A DNA stretch of 64,000 nucleotides from Bdellovibrio sp. 22V (GTDB lineage Bacteria > Bdellovibrionota > Bdellovibrionia > Bdellovibrionales > Bdellovibrionaceae), in assembly GCF_030169785.1 (NCBI RefSeq), contig NZ_CP125854.1:1674001-1738000 (forward strand), given 5' to 3'. The notes below the pieces were generated by a model. That model was not told the origin of the DNA, ran no database searches, and saw nothing but the letters and a program-made list of their open reading frames with translations. This document shows, in pieces, positions 29,042 to 35,412 of this stretch. Each line of letters starts with the position of its first letter. Within the stretch, counting starts at the first letter, position 1. The translations under genes and the position numbers were made by a program.

Positions 29042-29800
29042 ATGATCTGGCACTGGCGAACTTTATTACCATTCATCGGAGTTTTGTTTTTCAATTCACT
29101 TCAGGCACAGGCACAAACGCCACCGGGAGTACGCGTTCAAGACATTCAGGCCGTCGGTAGTGGCTGCCCCATCGGTTCTTATAACGCTACAATTTCTCCT
29201 GACGGCCAGGCCTTCTCTCTTCTTTTAGATAATTTTATCGCTGAATCCACAATGCATAGACCTATCGCCCGCCTTAACTGTGAATTGCGCGTGCGATTTT
29301 ATGTTCCGCGCGGATGGACATTCGCCGTGGTCTCTGCCGACTATCGCGGTTTTGCTTATGCAGAGGCCGGCACCATGGTGACACATCAAGCTCTTTATTC
29401 TTTTGATGGAAGTAAACCTCGCAATGAAAGACCCGGTTACGAAAATGGCGGCACTTACAACTTCCGTGCACAGGAGTTCCGCGGTCCTTATAACGACAAC
29501 TATTTTATCAGCCATAAAATTGATCCGCGTGTCGCTCCCTGGGCGCCATGCAGTAACGATCCTAATCAGACATTGTTTATTACGACATACCTGATGGCTC
29601 GTAATCTCAATCTCTCTTCTTTGGTCCAATCGCAAATCACACTGGACAGCATCGACGGACAAGTTCAGTCACAAAGATATCAATTTTTATGGAGACAGTG
29701 CACGCCAACGAACGGCCCACGTCCCGGTCAACCGCCAACAGATCCGCGCAACCCGCGCCCACGGGATCCTGGCAACGGCCGACCACCACGCTTTCCTTAA
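29042..29800 (+). CDS. secreted DUF4360-like protein with Pro-rich tail
   Basis: A signal peptide (LPFIGVLFFNSLQAQAQ) leads into a DUF4360-like domain: GSGCPIGSYNATISPDGQAF, LNCELRVRFYVPRGWTFAV, DYRGFAYAEAG and FLWRQC near the end of the domain. Four Cys suggest disulfides. The last 35 residues are rich in Pro, Arg and Gly (PPTDPRNPRPRDPGN), likely disordered. A second copy of the family is encoded 69 bp downstream (29870). Function of the family is unknown; members are secreted and also common in fungi. GGGGGA lies upstream of the ATG. Confidence 0.82.
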   Translation: MIWHWRTLLPFIGVLFFNSLQAQAQTPPGVRVQDIQAVGSGCPIGSYNATISPDGQAFSLLLDNFIAESTMHRPIARLNCELRVRFYVPRGWTFAVVSADYRGFAYAEAGTMVTHQALYSFDGSKPRNERPGYENGGTYNFRAQEFRGPYNDNYFISHKIDPRVAPWAPCSNDPNQTLFITTYLMARNLNLSSLVQSQITLDSIDGQVQSQRYQFLWRQCTPTNGPRPGQPPTDPRNPRPRDPGNGRPPRFP

Positions 29801-29869: not shown

Positions 29870-30466
29870 ATGAAATCGAAAGTACTTTTAACTCTTGCCG
29901 GAATTTTATCCATGTGGAGTTTGCAAGCGGAAGCAAATCAAATTCGTCTGGGCCAACCAGCTTATGGCGGCACCGGCTGTCCTGCGGGAACCGCGAGTGT
30001 GACACTCAGCCCGGATCAAAGCGCTGTGAGTATCTTGTTTGATAACTACGTCGCCGAAGCCGGTGGTGGTCGCCGTGTAGATCGTAAATCTTGTAACATC
30101 TCTGTTCCTGTGCAAGTTCCATCCGGATATAGTGTCGCCGTTTTCCAAGTGGATTACCGCGGTTTCAACTCTGTGCCTCGCGGTGGTATGTCACGCTTTG
30201 ATGCGGAATACTTCTGGGCTGGTGCGCGTGGACCTCGCGTTTCCAGAACTTTCGTGGGCCCGGTTTCAGATGTTTACACAGTGTCTGACGGTCTTATCGC
30301 AAGCGCCATGGTATGGACTCCGTGCGGTGCGAGTGTGAACTTGCGTGTCAACACATCCATGATGGCCCAATCTAACGCGCGCAGCGAACAAACATTGGCA
30401 ACAGTAGATAGCGCCGATATTTCTTCCGGCCTTATCTATCACTTGCAATGGAGACGTTGCCGCTAG
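29870..30466 (+). CDS. secreted DUF4360-like protein, paralog
   Basis: The 198-aa protein has a signal peptide ending at MWSLQAEA and the same fold as its upstream neighbour: GGTGCPAGTASVTLSPDQSAV, KSCNISVPVQVPSGYSVAV, DYRGFNSVPRGG and a closing LQWRRC. It lacks the Pro-rich tail. The two genes look like a tandem duplication that diverged. Ribosome binding site GGGGG lies 5 bp before the ATG. The two may be secreted into prey or the environment, but that is only a guess. Confidence 0.85.
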   Translation: MKSKVLLTLAGILSMWSLQAEANQIRLGQPAYGGTGCPAGTASVTLSPDQSAVSILFDNYVAEAGGGRRVDRKSCNISVPVQVPSGYSVAVFQVDYRGFNSVPRGGMSRFDAEYFWAGARGPRVSRTFVGPVSDVYTVSDGLIASAMVWTPCGASVNLRVNTSMMAQSNARSEQTLATVDSADISSGLIYHLQWRRCR

Positions 30467-30567
30467 TTAAAAAATCCCCAAGAGGCGGGGTTCCTAAGGC
30501 AAAAGTAGATGTCATCCTAAGAAATTTGCGATACCATCTGCTTTTGTCGGTAAACAGGAGCTCCGCC

Positions 30568-31044
30568 ATGAATTCTCACCAATCCAATGCCCTTCAAGTA
30601 AGACAAGCCCTCTGGGCTCTGCAAAAAGAAGTTCTCAACTCTCTAAAACATGAATTCGATCGCGAAGTCGGCTACGAGGCCGCTCCTACGGAATGGTTCC
30701 AAGTTCTTATGACAGCAGAACGTTATATCTGGCTGCGTGATTTGACATCTTTGATGGCCGATATCGATATCATGACCGAATTGGATTTTATCACAGACCA
30801 GCACGTCTCCACAGCGCGTGCGGAAATTGAAAGAATGCTGTTCGAGCAGGATGAAAGCTCCGAATTTAACAAACAGTACCGTGCTATGTTGATGACGGGT
30901 TCCACTTTGTTGCCATTGCACTCTCAGCTGCGTGCCACTCTACAAAATTTGCCAAAGGTCGAAATGCCTAAAGACCAAATTCTTGCGGAAAGAAAAAGTT
31001 GGCATGAAGAACACCGTCATCAAGCAAGAAAGAAACGCAACTAA
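30568..31044 (+). CDS. conserved hypothetical cytoplasmic protein (158 aa)
   Basis: The start at MNSHQSNALQV has GGAG upstream; the frame continues upstream into the preceding gene region without a signal. The sequence is mostly helical and charged, without membrane segments: ALWALQKEVLNSLKHEF, WFQVLMTAERYIWLRD, MADIDIMTELDF and a basic end (RKSWHEEHRHQARKKRN). No family is recognised; it may be a small helical-bundle protein. It is likely separate from the DUF4360 pair and from the globin operon (79 bp downstream). Confidence 0.65.
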   Translation: MNSHQSNALQVRQALWALQKEVLNSLKHEFDREVGYEAAPTEWFQVLMTAERYIWLRDLTSLMADIDIMTELDFITDQHVSTARAEIERMLFEQDESSEFNKQYRAMLMTGSTLLPLHSQLRATLQNLPKVEMPKDQILAERKSWHEEHRHQARKKRN

Positions 31045-31122
31045 CCTCCGAGTCTAAAAAAACATATCCCCTTCACAGTGTCACTGGCGTAGCCTTTTTG
31101 GCGAGGGACTGTGGAGGTTGTT

Positions 31123-31641
31123 ATGTTTCGCAATCTTTTCATCACCGCTCTGCTTGTGGGCGGCGCACTTGTTACGCTGACCGTTTACGGAAATGTCAAA
31201 AAATCTGCGCAGGAAGTTTCCGTGCGCGAAAACCTCTATGAAAAATACGGCGGCTATCCGACGGTCATGAAACTTGCCAATGATTTGGGTAACGCGCTTT
31301 TAGTGGACCCGATCACCGCTCCCTATTTCGGTGTCGTGGGGACACCAGGCCACGTGACACCCGATCGCCTTTTAAGTTGTTTGGATTTGCAATTGGTTTC
31401 TTTATTGGGCGGCCCCACGGTCTATCCCGGCCGGTCCAAGTTTCGAAATGCACCTCCAGAGGGTTATCAATGCCTCAGCATGCGAAAAATTCACAAGGGT
31501 TTAAACATCTCGGAAGAAGCTTGGAATCGCTTTCTAATGATCGCTGTCGATGTGTTGAAAGCCAACGGCGTCGAACAACATGACATTCATCAAATCGCAC
31601 CGATCCTTATCGGCATGAAAGAGGATGTGGTCGGACTGTGA
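31123..31641 (+). CDS. membrane-anchored truncated hemoglobin (group I-like)
   Basis: The start at 31123 has GGAGG 5 bp upstream. Residues 5-23 are a membrane anchor or signal (LFITALLVGGALVTLTVYG), after which a truncated-globin domain follows: ENLYEKYGGYPTVMKLANDL, DPITAPYFG and the F-helix segment MRKIHKGLNISEEAW with a likely proximal haem His near residue 124. Truncated hemoglobins usually handle O2, NO or act in redox; most lack an export signal. An unknown protein is translationally coupled downstream (GTGA overlap), which suggests a joint role at the periplasmic side of the membrane. Confidence 0.82.
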   Translation: MFRNLFITALLVGGALVTLTVYGNVKKSAQEVSVRENLYEKYGGYPTVMKLANDLGNALLVDPITAPYFGVVGTPGHVTPDRLLSCLDLQLVSLLGGPTVYPGRSKFRNAPPEGYQCLSMRKIHKGLNISEEAWNRFLMIAVDVLKANGVEQHDIHQIAPILIGMKEDVVGL

Positions 31642-32336
31642 AAACCTTCGCCATCATCTTTCTTCTGTTGATTGGGTTCGCGGCGGGCTTTGTCGGATTT
31701 CTTCACACACCTTCTTTAAGACAAACGCCTTTTGCAATGAAGGTGCTGACCTGGCTTGGCACCTCTTGTCCCACCGACTTCTTGACAGCCCAAGGCTTGG
31801 ATCATCTTCGTCACGATTCCTTGGTCAAGATACGCGGCGCTTCGCAAGCACCCACAAAAACAGTGTGGGGCCTAACGTTGAACCGCTCCAATGAAGCCGA
31901 GCTTTTGCGCTGGATGCGCGATCGCCGATTCACGTGCGAAAAATCGCGACGAGGTTACGTGTACTATAAGTGCAAAAATATTTCTTTAACCTCTTTGGGC
32001 CGGCCGTTTAAAGGTCCTATCGGCGATTTGGATTTCGCGCTGGATGCTTACGACCGTTTGATCTTTGTTGGATTCCTTCAAGGAAAAATGGAAAGCAAAC
32101 AAGCTTTTGCTCTCTTTAGAAGAATTTCCCAGCAACTCAAGCTGCGCCTCGGGGAGCCCAGTCGCAAGACTGAAAGTTTTTCTTTTCATGATTTTACAAA
32201 AGATCTGAATGCCGTAACGACCGAGTATCGTTTTAAAGACTATCTTGCGAAAGTCATCGCGACACGTATTCCACAAAGCGGTGTGATGCTGTATGAGCAG
32301 CACATCGCTTTACCAGAGAATTTTGCCAACAATTAA
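31638..32336 (+). CDS. hypothetical membrane-anchored protein coupled to the globin
   Basis: It starts at GTG 31638, overlapping the globin stop by GTGA. One N-terminal hydrophobic segment (IIFLLLIGFAAGFVGFL) is followed by a soluble region with no family match: GLTLNRSNEAELLRWMRDR, ISLTSLGRPFKGPIGDLDF, DAYDRLIFVGFLQG and YRFKDYLAKVIATRIPQSG. Three Cys (SCP, TCEK, KCKN) may form disulfides outside the membrane. Coupling to the globin gene implies a shared function, perhaps in anchoring or electron transfer, but nothing more can be said. Confidence 0.7.
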   Translation: MKTFAIIFLLLIGFAAGFVGFLHTPSLRQTPFAMKVLTWLGTSCPTDFLTAQGLDHLRHDSLVKIRGASQAPTKTVWGLTLNRSNEAELLRWMRDRRFTCEKSRRGYVYYKCKNISLTSLGRPFKGPIGDLDFALDAYDRLIFVGFLQGKMESKQAFALFRRISQQLKLRLGEPSRKTESFSFHDFTKDLNAVTTEYRFKDYLAKVIATRIPQSGVMLYEQHIALPENFANN

Positions 32337-33560: not shown

Positions 33561-33578
33561 TGTGTTAATCTTAACACA
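33561..33578. promoter_or_regulatory. 18-bp perfect palindrome at the divergent rtcB/solute-binding protein start
   Basis: The sequence TGTGTTAATCTTAACACA has two perfect 8-bp arms and a 2-bp centre. It fills the space just before the start of the solute-binding protein gene, its last base being the A of the ATG, and lies 28 bp upstream of rtcB. A regulator binding here would block both directions. There is no recognisable ribosome binding site for the ATG at 33578. Confidence 0.55.
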
Positions 33579-34375
33579 TGGCAAAGGCTCTGTTATTTAT
33601 ATTTATTCATCTTCTCGCCAGTGCGAGCCTGGCTCTTCCTGACAACTCACTGAGGATCGTCACAGAGAACTGGCCTCCTGTTACTTATGAAAAAGAAGGC
33701 CAAGCACAAGGCATGGCTGTAGAGCTTGCACATCTTATTCAAAAAGAAATGGGTGAAAGCGATCCTATCGAAGTGCTTCCTTGGCCTCGCGCTTATCACG
33801 TTGCTAAAACCCGGCCTAATACTTTGCTCTTCACAGTCGTCAGAACTCCAGAGCGTGAACAGCTTTTCACGTTGCTGGGACCTATCGCCAACGGCGAGAT
33901 CGCCATTTATACTCGTCGCACTGCGGATCTAAGTTTTTCTGATTTAAACTATGTGAAAGAAAATTATTCTGTCGCTGTTCACAGAGGAACAGCCTTTCAC
34001 AAAGTGCTCGAAGATAACGGTTACAAAAAGATCGTTCCGGTGAACTCATCGATCAGCGGACTAAAAATGCTTATGGCTGGGCGTGTGGATATGCTTTGTG
34101 ACGACGTCCTGGCGATTCACAGAATTTCGGAAGAGGCGGGTTATCCTTATGACGCGCAAAAAAAAGTGACGTCTTTGCAACACAGCTCGCTTTACTTTGC
34201 GTTTTCCAAAAACACCGACAAAGACATCATTGAGAAATGGAAACGCAGTTTTGAAAAAATAAAAAAGAATGGCACCTACAAAGCTCTCTACAAAAAATGG
34301 TTCGGCCCCTTGAGTTCCCCTACTGAAGTTTTGTTGGTGTCCAATGGTAAAAAAGCCCCTATAATCGAATTATGA
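33578..34375 (+). CDS. solute-binding protein, family 3 type
   Basis: The 265-aa protein has a signal peptide (LFIFIHLLASASLALP) and the type-3 binding fold: LRIVTENWPPVTYEKEGQAQGMAVELAHLIQKEM, EVLPWPRAYHVAKTRPN, and a C-terminal KIKKNGTYKALYKKWFG. It overlaps the downstream FUSC-type exporter gene by ATGA (4 bp), so the two are coupled. No ABC genes are present, which makes a classical uptake role unlikely; it may be a ligand sensor or carrier for the exporter. Its start is SD-less and sits on the palindrome described at 33561. Confidence 0.82.
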   Translation: MAKALLFIFIHLLASASLALPDNSLRIVTENWPPVTYEKEGQAQGMAVELAHLIQKEMGESDPIEVLPWPRAYHVAKTRPNTLLFTVVRTPEREQLFTLLGPIANGEIAIYTRRTADLSFSDLNYVKENYSVAVHRGTAFHKVLEDNGYKKIVPVNSSISGLKMLMAGRVDMLCDDVLAIHRISEEAGYPYDAQKKVTSLQHSSLYFAFSKNTDKDIIEKWKRSFEKIKKNGTYKALYKKWFGPLSSPTEVLLVSNGKKAPIIEL

Positions 34376-35412
34376 ATCTGCGTGGCCATCTTGAAGAAGT
34401 TTTAAGAATAAATCCCGTTCCTTCTCCTTGGCCGCGTATGGTTGTTTCCGCTTTCGCAACTTTTATTCCTTTGATGGTCGGACTTTTTTTAAACCAACTG
34501 CCGATTTCTATCTTCGGTGCGCTGTTTGGATTTCTCTTGGTTCTTAATGATCATCTTGGAACCTTAGGCCATCGTCTTTGGGTCATCACTTTGACTTTTC
34601 TGATTATGCTGGGGGGACTGCTTCTCGGTGTGCTCACGCACAATCATCCTCTGCTCTTGTTTCCGATTTTGCTTTGTTTAACTTACTGGATGGGACTTTC
34701 AGCGGCCAAAGGGGCCGAACTGGAAAGAGCCGTTTTGTTTGGAACATTTCAGGTGCTGGCGGGAACATACACCGGAGTGCGAATGCAATATCTTGCTCCG
34801 CTTCTGTTGTACGCTTTTCTGGGATATCTTTGCGTCGTCGTGATCTTGTCTTGTCTGGTATTTATTCGCAGACACAATCCCAATCCCTTTGCCCGTCTGC
34901 GCAAAGCGCTTAAAGACAGTTTAACAACTGAGAAACATCGCCACCTTTATGCTTTTGCTTACAGTTTTTGCGTGCTCTCCAGCCTGTTTATTGTCGACTA
35001 TTTTAAAATGAATCACGGCTATTGGGCTGTCGGCACAGTGTTGATCATCATGCGCCCCGAACCCAAAGCCAGCATCTATCGCAATATTCAAAGATTCTTT
35101 GGTACCTTGATCGGTGTTTTGTTGGCAGAGGCTTTGATCTTTACAATTCATTCTCCATGGATTGCCATTCCCGTCTTAGCCTTTATCAGTTTTTGGGGAC
35201 CATGGGCCTTAAGCCGCAGCTATTGGCTGGGTTCCGCGGTCATGTCAGTGATGGTTTTGTTGTTGCTTGATATGCCCTATTTGGAGCGCGGAGATTTGCA
35301 CACGCCTCTGTTGCGCTTGCAAGCAACAGGCGTAGGATGTCTGTTCAGTCTGATTGGCGTGGTGATCGCCAATCCGCAAATTCTTTGGAAGGACGCGCCT
35401 CCCAAAGAATAA
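34372..35412 (+). CDS. FUSC-family membrane protein (aromatic acid exporter-like)
   Basis: The 346-aa protein has roughly ten membrane segments in two sets of about five (starting MVVSAFATFIPLMVG and LYAFAYSFCVLSSLFIVDYF), as in FUSC/ArAE exporters, which pump out aromatic acids or similar compounds. It is shorter than the E. coli AaeB type and lacks the large cytoplasmic middle domain. The second half has the typical NHGYWAVGTVLIIMRPEPKAS motif. It is co-translated with the solute-binding protein gene upstream. A hairpin lies just past the stop. Confidence 0.82.
   Translation: MNLRGHLEEVLRINPVPSPWPRMVVSAFATFIPLMVGLFLNQLPISIFGALFGFLLVLNDHLGTLGHRLWVITLTFLIMLGGLLLGVLTHNHPLLLFPILLCLTYWMGLSAAKGAELERAVLFGTFQVLAGTYTGVRMQYLAPLLLYAFLGYLCVVVILSCLVFIRRHNPNPFARLRKALKDSLTTEKHRHLYAFAYSFCVLSSLFIVDYFKMNHGYWAVGTVLIIMRPEPKASIYRNIQRFFGTLIGVLLAEALIFTIHSPWIAIPVLAFISFWGPWALSRSYWLGSAVMSVMVLLLLDMPYLERGDLHTPLLRLQATGVGCLFSLIGVVIANPQILWKDAPPKE

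Follow-up and report, generated by a model that had tools for sequence, protein, structure and literature searches.

A predicted group I truncated-globin relative with an altered haem pocket, encoded with an orphan partner in Bdellovibrio

What does a truncated globin with a hydrophobic N-terminus do when its gene runs directly into that of an orphan protein, and does haem have any part in it? The question is raised by a gene pair of Bdellovibrio sp. 22V that lies in a 64,000-nucleotide stretch of the genome (contig NZ_CP125854.1, positions 1,674,001 to 1,738,000; hereafter the window, from the first letter of which all coordinates are counted). An earlier note, made from the letters alone, had described the pair as an exported or membrane-anchored truncated haemoglobin coupled to a membrane-anchored protein of unknown fold.

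The gene pair and its products

The features of the locus on which the argument depends are the following:

30448–31044, forward strand: upstream neighbour, outside the claimed unit, used as the synteny anchor; its 160-aa core (30562–31041) is matched in all 24 congeners
31112–31117, forward strand: TGGAGG, resembling a ribosome-binding site, 5' of the globin ATG
31123–31641, forward strand: globin gene, 172 codons, ATG at 31123, stop TGA at 31639–31641
31123–31200, forward strand: first 26 globin codons, predicted leader and anchor
31378–31380, forward strand: codon of Cys86, at E10 by alignment
31471–31473, forward strand: codon of Cys117, at the end of the 14-residue E-F insertion and seven residues before the proximal His
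31492–31494, forward strand: codon of His124, at the proximal (F8) position; Gln in the orthologues of G015 and G025
31638–31641, forward strand: GTGA overlap, in which the partner start GTG shares bases with the globin stop TGA
31638–32336, forward strand: partner gene, 232 aa, start GTG at 31638; an orphan

The GTGA overlap connects two real genes, as the earlier note had it, and the TGGAGG motif also precedes the partner-only genes found in three congeners (G005, G008 and G012; see below). A scan for promoters and terminators gave results no better than those for shuffled sequences. The upstream neighbour is without a match in Pfam, NCBIfam, PADLOC and PHROGs. Elsewhere in the 3.6 Mb host genome, two further truncated globins that are recognised by Pfam are encoded at C1:121709 and C1:1543198.

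The surroundings of the pair include an adjacent pair of DUF4360 genes upstream (29042–29800 and 29870–30466), the second of which (29870–30466) has lookalikes, identified by eye, at the corresponding position in several congeners. At 33578–35412, a gene for a family 3 solute-binding protein and a gene for a FUSC-family membrane protein overlap by 4 bases, and one or the other of these genes is located near the locus in several congeners.

Each of the two products starts with a hydrophobic segment. In the globin, where such a segment had been noticed before, the best 19-residue Kyte-Doolittle mean is 1.99 (residues 5–23), compared to 1.29 for the best stretch from residue 51 on; in the partner, the respective values are 2.69 (residues 4–22) and 0.84. 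The charge bias around these segments is weak in the window copies, with one basic residue before the segment and three in the 15 residues after it in the globin, and one before and two after in the partner, and is clearer in two orthologous pairs that have two to four basic residues before the segment and none or one after it. Both proteins may adopt an N-in/C-out orientation and face the periplasm, with the segment acting either as a cleaved signal peptide or as an uncleaved anchor.

Against the Pfam profile PF01152, the window globin scores 18.2 bits, below the gathering cut-off of 21, and the orthologue from G025 scores 21.6 bits. Despite this low score, group I ancestry is supported by the AlphaFold2 model (mean pLDDT 77.6, pTM 0.69; input alignment of 25 sequences, namely the window globin and 24 globins from related loci). 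The best Foldseek match of the model is the trHbN of Shewanella benthica (7tt9; target TM-score 0.89), and the target TM-scores are 0.87 for the group I truncated haemoglobin of Paramecium, 0.86 for the Tetrahymena trHb and 0.82 for the HbN of M. tuberculosis (1idr). In this comparison with PDB structures, the model has the 2-on-2 globin fold, with helices B (residues 45–61), E (80–94), F (120–124), G (131–147) and H (152–168), and with insertions of about 6 residues in the CD region and 14 residues between E and F. Group I truncated haemoglobins are defined by a Gly-Gly motif in each of the AB and EF regions, and both motifs are kept here, as G43G44 and G96G97P98. The globin has no match in the viral collection. 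Judging from the model, it is a group-I-type truncated-globin relative.

The partner has no usable profile match in Pfam, NCBIfam, PADLOC, PHROGs or PDB, where chance-level hits were obtained to GntR (E 0.064, for one of six homologues) and to one PDB chain (E 2.3); nothing in the phage and viral collections matched it, and its model, folded alone, was discarded at a pLDDT of 43.5. Strong homologues are present in 6 of the 368 genomes of the phylum, all in the genus of the window (6 of the 66 family genomes). The earlier note was right that the partner carries three cysteines (44, 100 and 112) along with an N-terminal segment of its own, but only Cys100 and Cys112 are conserved in all six homologues; these two probably form a disulphide.

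Weaker relatives of the partner outside the genus (nine loci in eight genomes of the phylum, E 5e-4 to 9e-3) were set aside: five of the nine loci encode a different-looking family of 312–339 aa, and L115, L117, L118 and L122 were left out.

The haem pocket and the cysteine pair

Topological positions were assigned through alignment to PDB sequences in which named mutants mark them (TyrB10Phe and GlnE11Val in HbN; Y25F, Q46E and Q50E in the Tetrahymena protein), and the spacing of E7, E10, E11 and E14 is consistent with that given for THB11 in the available text of PMC7082302. The window globin has Leu55 at B9, Gly56 at B10, Phe69 at CD1, Leu83 at E7, Cys86 at E10, Leu87 at E11, Gln90 at E14 and His124 at F8. 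The pair PheB9-TyrB10, described in the accessible part of PMC4720485 as commonly found, with TyrB10 present in 80% of cases, is replaced by Leu55-Gly56, and the PheE14 that, according to the same portion of PMC7082302, is highly conserved and shields the haem is replaced by Gln90. Across the three orthologues, B9-B10 is Leu-Gly in the window copy and Thr-Gly and Thr-Ser in the others, and E14 is Gln in all three. In both G015 and G025, CD1 is Leu and the proximal position F8 is Gln, and there is no His at or beside F8, with no His between residues 26 and 172 in G015 or after residue 128 in G025. Among the pocket features examined, the window copy retains only the proximal His, the CD1 Phe and the Gly-Gly motifs. 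Given the changes at B9, B10 and E14, together with the Gln at F8 and the Leu at CD1 of both orthologues, the label 'haemoglobin' attached to the protein in the earlier note is not supported.

The window globin resembles the group I (N) truncated haemoglobins, such as M. tuberculosis HbN and Tetrahymena trHb, in its fold, its Gly-Gly motifs and its proximal His. Unlike these proteins, it lacks PheB9-TyrB10 and PheE14, contains the CD and E-F insertions, the cysteine pair and the N-terminal hydrophobic segment, and scores below the Pfam cut-off. A second point of reference is the TrHbN-2 subgroup, which, in the available text of PMC11904497, is defined by hydrophobic residues at B10, E7, E11 and G8 and binds haem without TyrB10, its member SbHbN binding both haem and cyanide. 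The window globin shares with SbHbN, its best structural match, the absence of Tyr from B10 and the hydrophobic residues at E7 and E11, but differs from it in having the N-terminal segment and the insertions, and in that B10 and E14 are occupied by Gly and Gln, respectively. The cysteines of SbHbN also lie elsewhere, at E16 and F10, and are described there as too distant for an intramolecular bond; the word 'periplasm' is absent from the main text of that article.

The mature part of the window globin contains exactly two cysteines, Cys86 and Cys117, and this pair, which suggests a disulphide formed outside the cytoplasm, is kept in all four members of the lineage, even in the two copies that lack the proximal His. 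The only full orthologues among the 66 family genomes are those of G015 and G025, with 42 and 50% identity to the window globin, respectively; the remaining two globin matches in this set are a different leader-bearing globin (G063) and a leader only (G023). Among the 368 phylum genomes, of which 30 gave a match, with the scan covering the loci available for 25 of these matches, the only relative outside the genus with the cysteine pair is L097 (genome G333), a protein from another family with His at F8, a leader that looks lipoprotein-like by eye (LVGC) and a position at a contig end. The pair of cysteines at E10 and before F was found in none of the 46 sequences listed from the genome-contig collection, in none of the loci of 45 genomes belonging to the phylum of G368, and in none of the 15 loci (of 17 matches; L237 is a partial frame) from 249 Pseudomonadota genomes; in other phyla, the globin search employed two short peptide patterns and plasmids. 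Within this scope, no wider family of globins with the cysteine pair is seen, L097 being the only case outside the genus in the phylum.

The locus across the genus

The globin and the partner occur together in 3 of the 24 congeners (G000, G015 and G025), and in each of these the partner lies directly downstream, so that the search for the pair across genomes for which the earlier note had called yields the same second gene rather than an unrelated one. The spacing varies from the 4-base overlap in the window to gaps of 2 bases in G015 and 1 base in G025. In three other congeners (G005, G008 and G012), the partner is present without the globin body. Two more (G011, 26 aa, tblastn E 4e-4; G023, 28 aa, E 2e-5) have a leader open reading frame alone, indicating that a gene with such a leader was formerly present at the locus, and in the remaining 16 congeners no trace is detectable downstream of the upstream neighbour.

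The partner genes of G005, G008 and G012 begin with the globin leader and its 5' region. A tblastn search with the whole globin (E 0.01) did not report the leaders of these genes, which became apparent in direct comparison. The first 26 residues of the three proteins align with five globin leaders at scores of 36–69, which none of 500 shuffles reaches in 14 of the 15 comparisons and a single shuffle reaches in the remaining one; the same residues score 12–24 against three partner leaders, values reached by at least 142 shuffles in all nine comparisons and thus expected by chance. The nucleotide sequences give the same picture: the 75 bases on either side of the partner-only starts score 60–82 against the start of the window globin (best shuffle 33–39), compared to 20–26 against the start of the window partner, where 11 to 130 shuffles score as high. 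The simplest history would be an in-frame deletion that began inside the globin leader and ended in that of the partner.

For the resulting leader-partner gene, the dN/dS ratio between G005 and G008 is 0.016 (dN 0.021, dS 1.28), indicating that this gene is maintained without the globin body. The dS values are saturated in all 3 globin comparisons and in 10 of the 15 partner comparisons, and accordingly no selection estimate is obtainable for the globin. In the genus tree, built from the 160-aa core of the upstream neighbour, G005, G008 and G012 form one group (support 95/90) and most other relationships are poorly resolved, and a topology in which the eight trace-bearing genomes are held together is not rejected as a single clade (p-AU 0.092); with such a tree, the order of gains and losses is not fixed.

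Exported globins elsewhere and the role of the pair

According to the earlier note, most truncated haemoglobins are cytoplasmic; exported or leader-bearing ones nonetheless occur in other systems. In cable bacteria, the lPHCtX proteins contain truncated-globin domains that are located in the periplasm, fused to pentahaem cytochromes and suggested to be terminal oxidases, according to the available text of PMC11976967. The window globin is like them in the (predicted) periplasmic placement of a truncated-globin domain and unlike them in having no cytochrome and an orphan partner instead. Furthermore, the phylum contains 12 other leader-bearing group I globins (L042–L044, L169, L170, L177, L200, L215, L219, L222, L224 and L225), which form one clade and all keep the F8 His. 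Like the window globin, they combine a hydrophobic leader with the absence of TyrB10, L200 being the only one to keep it, and four of them (L169, L170, L177 and L215) share the E14 Gln, which no other row of two of the scans has outside the window lineage and which, in the Pseudomonadota scan, recurs in L239 and the partial L237. Unlike the window lineage, they have no Cys at E10, and their genomes contain no match to the partner at E 0.01. This clade may overlap with the TrHbN-2 subgroup. In the best tree, the window lineage is placed apart from it, and a single clade comprising all 16 leader-bearing rows is not rejected (p-AU 0.279). A literature search at the level of titles and abstract openings, with few subscription journals covered, turned up no case of an orphan protein paired with a truncated globin that is exported. 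Export of a truncated globin is thus not in itself new; what sets this case apart is a dismantled pocket, together with the coupling and with the loss of the globin body ahead of the partner.

Across the phylum, the absence of TyrB10 coincides with a hydrophobic N-terminus in five of six loci, compared to none of the 36 others (Fisher p 7e-6), in a sample of 42 loci that comprises those among the PF01152 matches listed, at about 53–78 bits, and excludes the partial G164 and the matches above 78 bits. The threshold of about 1.8 for a hydrophobic N-terminus was chosen by eye following an initial inspection (13/14 versus 3/92), and three rows at 1.3–1.6 were counted as leaderless. On the tree of 50 rows, export requires only two changes, so that it is a clade property that reflects one or two events and not repeated adaptation. 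In Pseudomonadota the link is looser: three of the seven rows with a hydrophobic N-terminus (counting L235, which at 1.76 is just under the threshold) keep the Tyr, and three rows without such an N-terminus lack it. Because of the two tree changes and this looser link, we claim no rule by which export causes the loss of TyrB10.

These scans also brought up several globins of separate interest. Three truncated-globin relatives (L089, L093 and L094) lack the proximal His by alignment, with Tyr in Oxalobacteraceae and Ile in Leptospiraceae, and are possibly other haem-free truncated globins. Three group I globins of Pseudomonadota (L233, L236 and L239) have a leader, no TyrB10 and a C-x6-C pair around a GGP/DGP motif, perhaps another disulphide solution for export. 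The loci L241, L242 and L245 each contain two group I globin frames, one of which starts with a hydrophobic segment and has its Phe-Tyr pair intact. In SAR324, a 304-aa open reading frame (L049) contains two tandem truncated-globin domains, and a far longer frame in the same genome (L150) includes one such domain.

Considering the locus as a whole, we tentatively favour a unit of two proteins facing the periplasm, whose conserved work would fall to the partner, the globin being a dispensable and probably increasingly haem-independent accessory. The GTGA overlap would couple the translation of the two products, each of which would be inserted by its own single N-terminal segment; both soluble domains would then reside in the periplasm, held by the putative Cys86-Cys117 and Cys100-Cys112 disulphides, respectively. 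The partner would carry the function that is kept by selection, and the globin domain, in a complex with it, could act as a scaffold or modulator that braces or tunes the partner, the ancestral O2 and haem chemistry being relaxed and haem retained, through His124, at most in copies like that of the window. The evidence that leads to this reading is the adjacency of the two genes in all three globin-bearing congeners, the changes at B9-B10, E14 and F8 relative to the common Phe-Tyr and PheE14 (PMC4720485 and PMC7082302, in the parts cited above), the persistence of the globin cysteine pair even where the proximal His is gone, and the globin leader that heads the partner-only genes, with the low dN/dS of one such gene pair. 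In two species the pair persists without the haem ligand, and in three the partner persists without the globin, so that haem chemistry of O2, NO or peroxide is unlikely to be the function that these forms share. Against this reading count the His at F8 and the Phe at CD1 of the window copy, the binding of haem without TyrB10 in TrHbN-2 (PMC11904497, available text), the weak positive-inside bias of the window copy, the number of pairs, which is only three, the low pLDDT of the partner model, and the fact that the leader of the partner-only genes is seen solely by direct comparison and not by tblastn.

The main alternative, which we consider rather unlikely, is that the protein is a working, periplasm-facing haem globin of a far-diverged TrHbN-2 type with low O2 affinity, the Gln copies being secondary degenerations; such a protein would act at the membrane, where it would sense or handle O2, NO, peroxide or haem and relay electrons or a signal to the partner. 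The retention of His124, Phe69 and the Gly-Gly motifs in the window copy is compatible with this possibility, as are the F8 His of L097 and of the 12 leader-bearing globins of the phylum, the outcome of the test for a single clade of 16 rows, and the hydrophobic pattern at B10, E7 and E11 that is typical of TrHbN-2, to which the haem- and cyanide-binding SbHbN belongs (PMC11904497, same portion). However, the residues at B10 (Gly) and E14 (Gln) are not simply hydrophobic, the pair persists without the proximal His in G015 and G025, and the partner persists without the globin in three other congeners.

It is improbable that the two genes are decaying, near-neutral accessories that were acquired in the genus and are being lost without any maintained function: 16 congeners without a trace, two with a leader only and the modest identity among the globin orthologues would agree with such decay, but the reading frames are intact in all three pairs, the cysteine pairs are kept, and the leader-partner gene evolves under the low dN/dS given above. 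Still less probable is a role of Cys86 as a sulphur ligand of the haem iron, in a thiolate or Cys/His hexacoordinate exported electron-transfer globin; the residue occupies E10 by alignment, a position that, in the available text of PMC11904497, may coordinate the iron in truncated haemoglobins, but Cys117 is conserved alongside it in all four lineage members, a better fit to a disulphide, and the Gln copies would be left with a lone Cys ligand. We give equally little credence to both proteins being anchored in the membrane and facing the cytoplasm, for which the weak charge bias of the window copy could be cited, together with the Pseudomonadota trHb1s of L241, L242 and L245, read by eye as cytoplasm-facing, which keep PheB9-TyrB10 behind a hydrophobic N-terminus, but against which stand the conserved cysteine pairs of both proteins, the clearer charge bias of the orthologues and the lipoprotein-like leader of L097.

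It is possible, if speculative, that a globin is here losing its haem and turning into a haem-free subunit of an orphan membrane protein, located in the periplasm and braced by a disulphide, with ligand-bearing, ligand-less and body-lost forms, in the last of which the globin anchor carries the partner, represented at one locus within a single genus. In close orthologues at this single locus, the proximal ligand is kept, replaced, or gone with the whole domain while the partner survives, so that it becomes directly testable in related species at what point, and for what reason, a globin can do without haem. The locus also adds an uncharacterised membrane protein linked to a globin.
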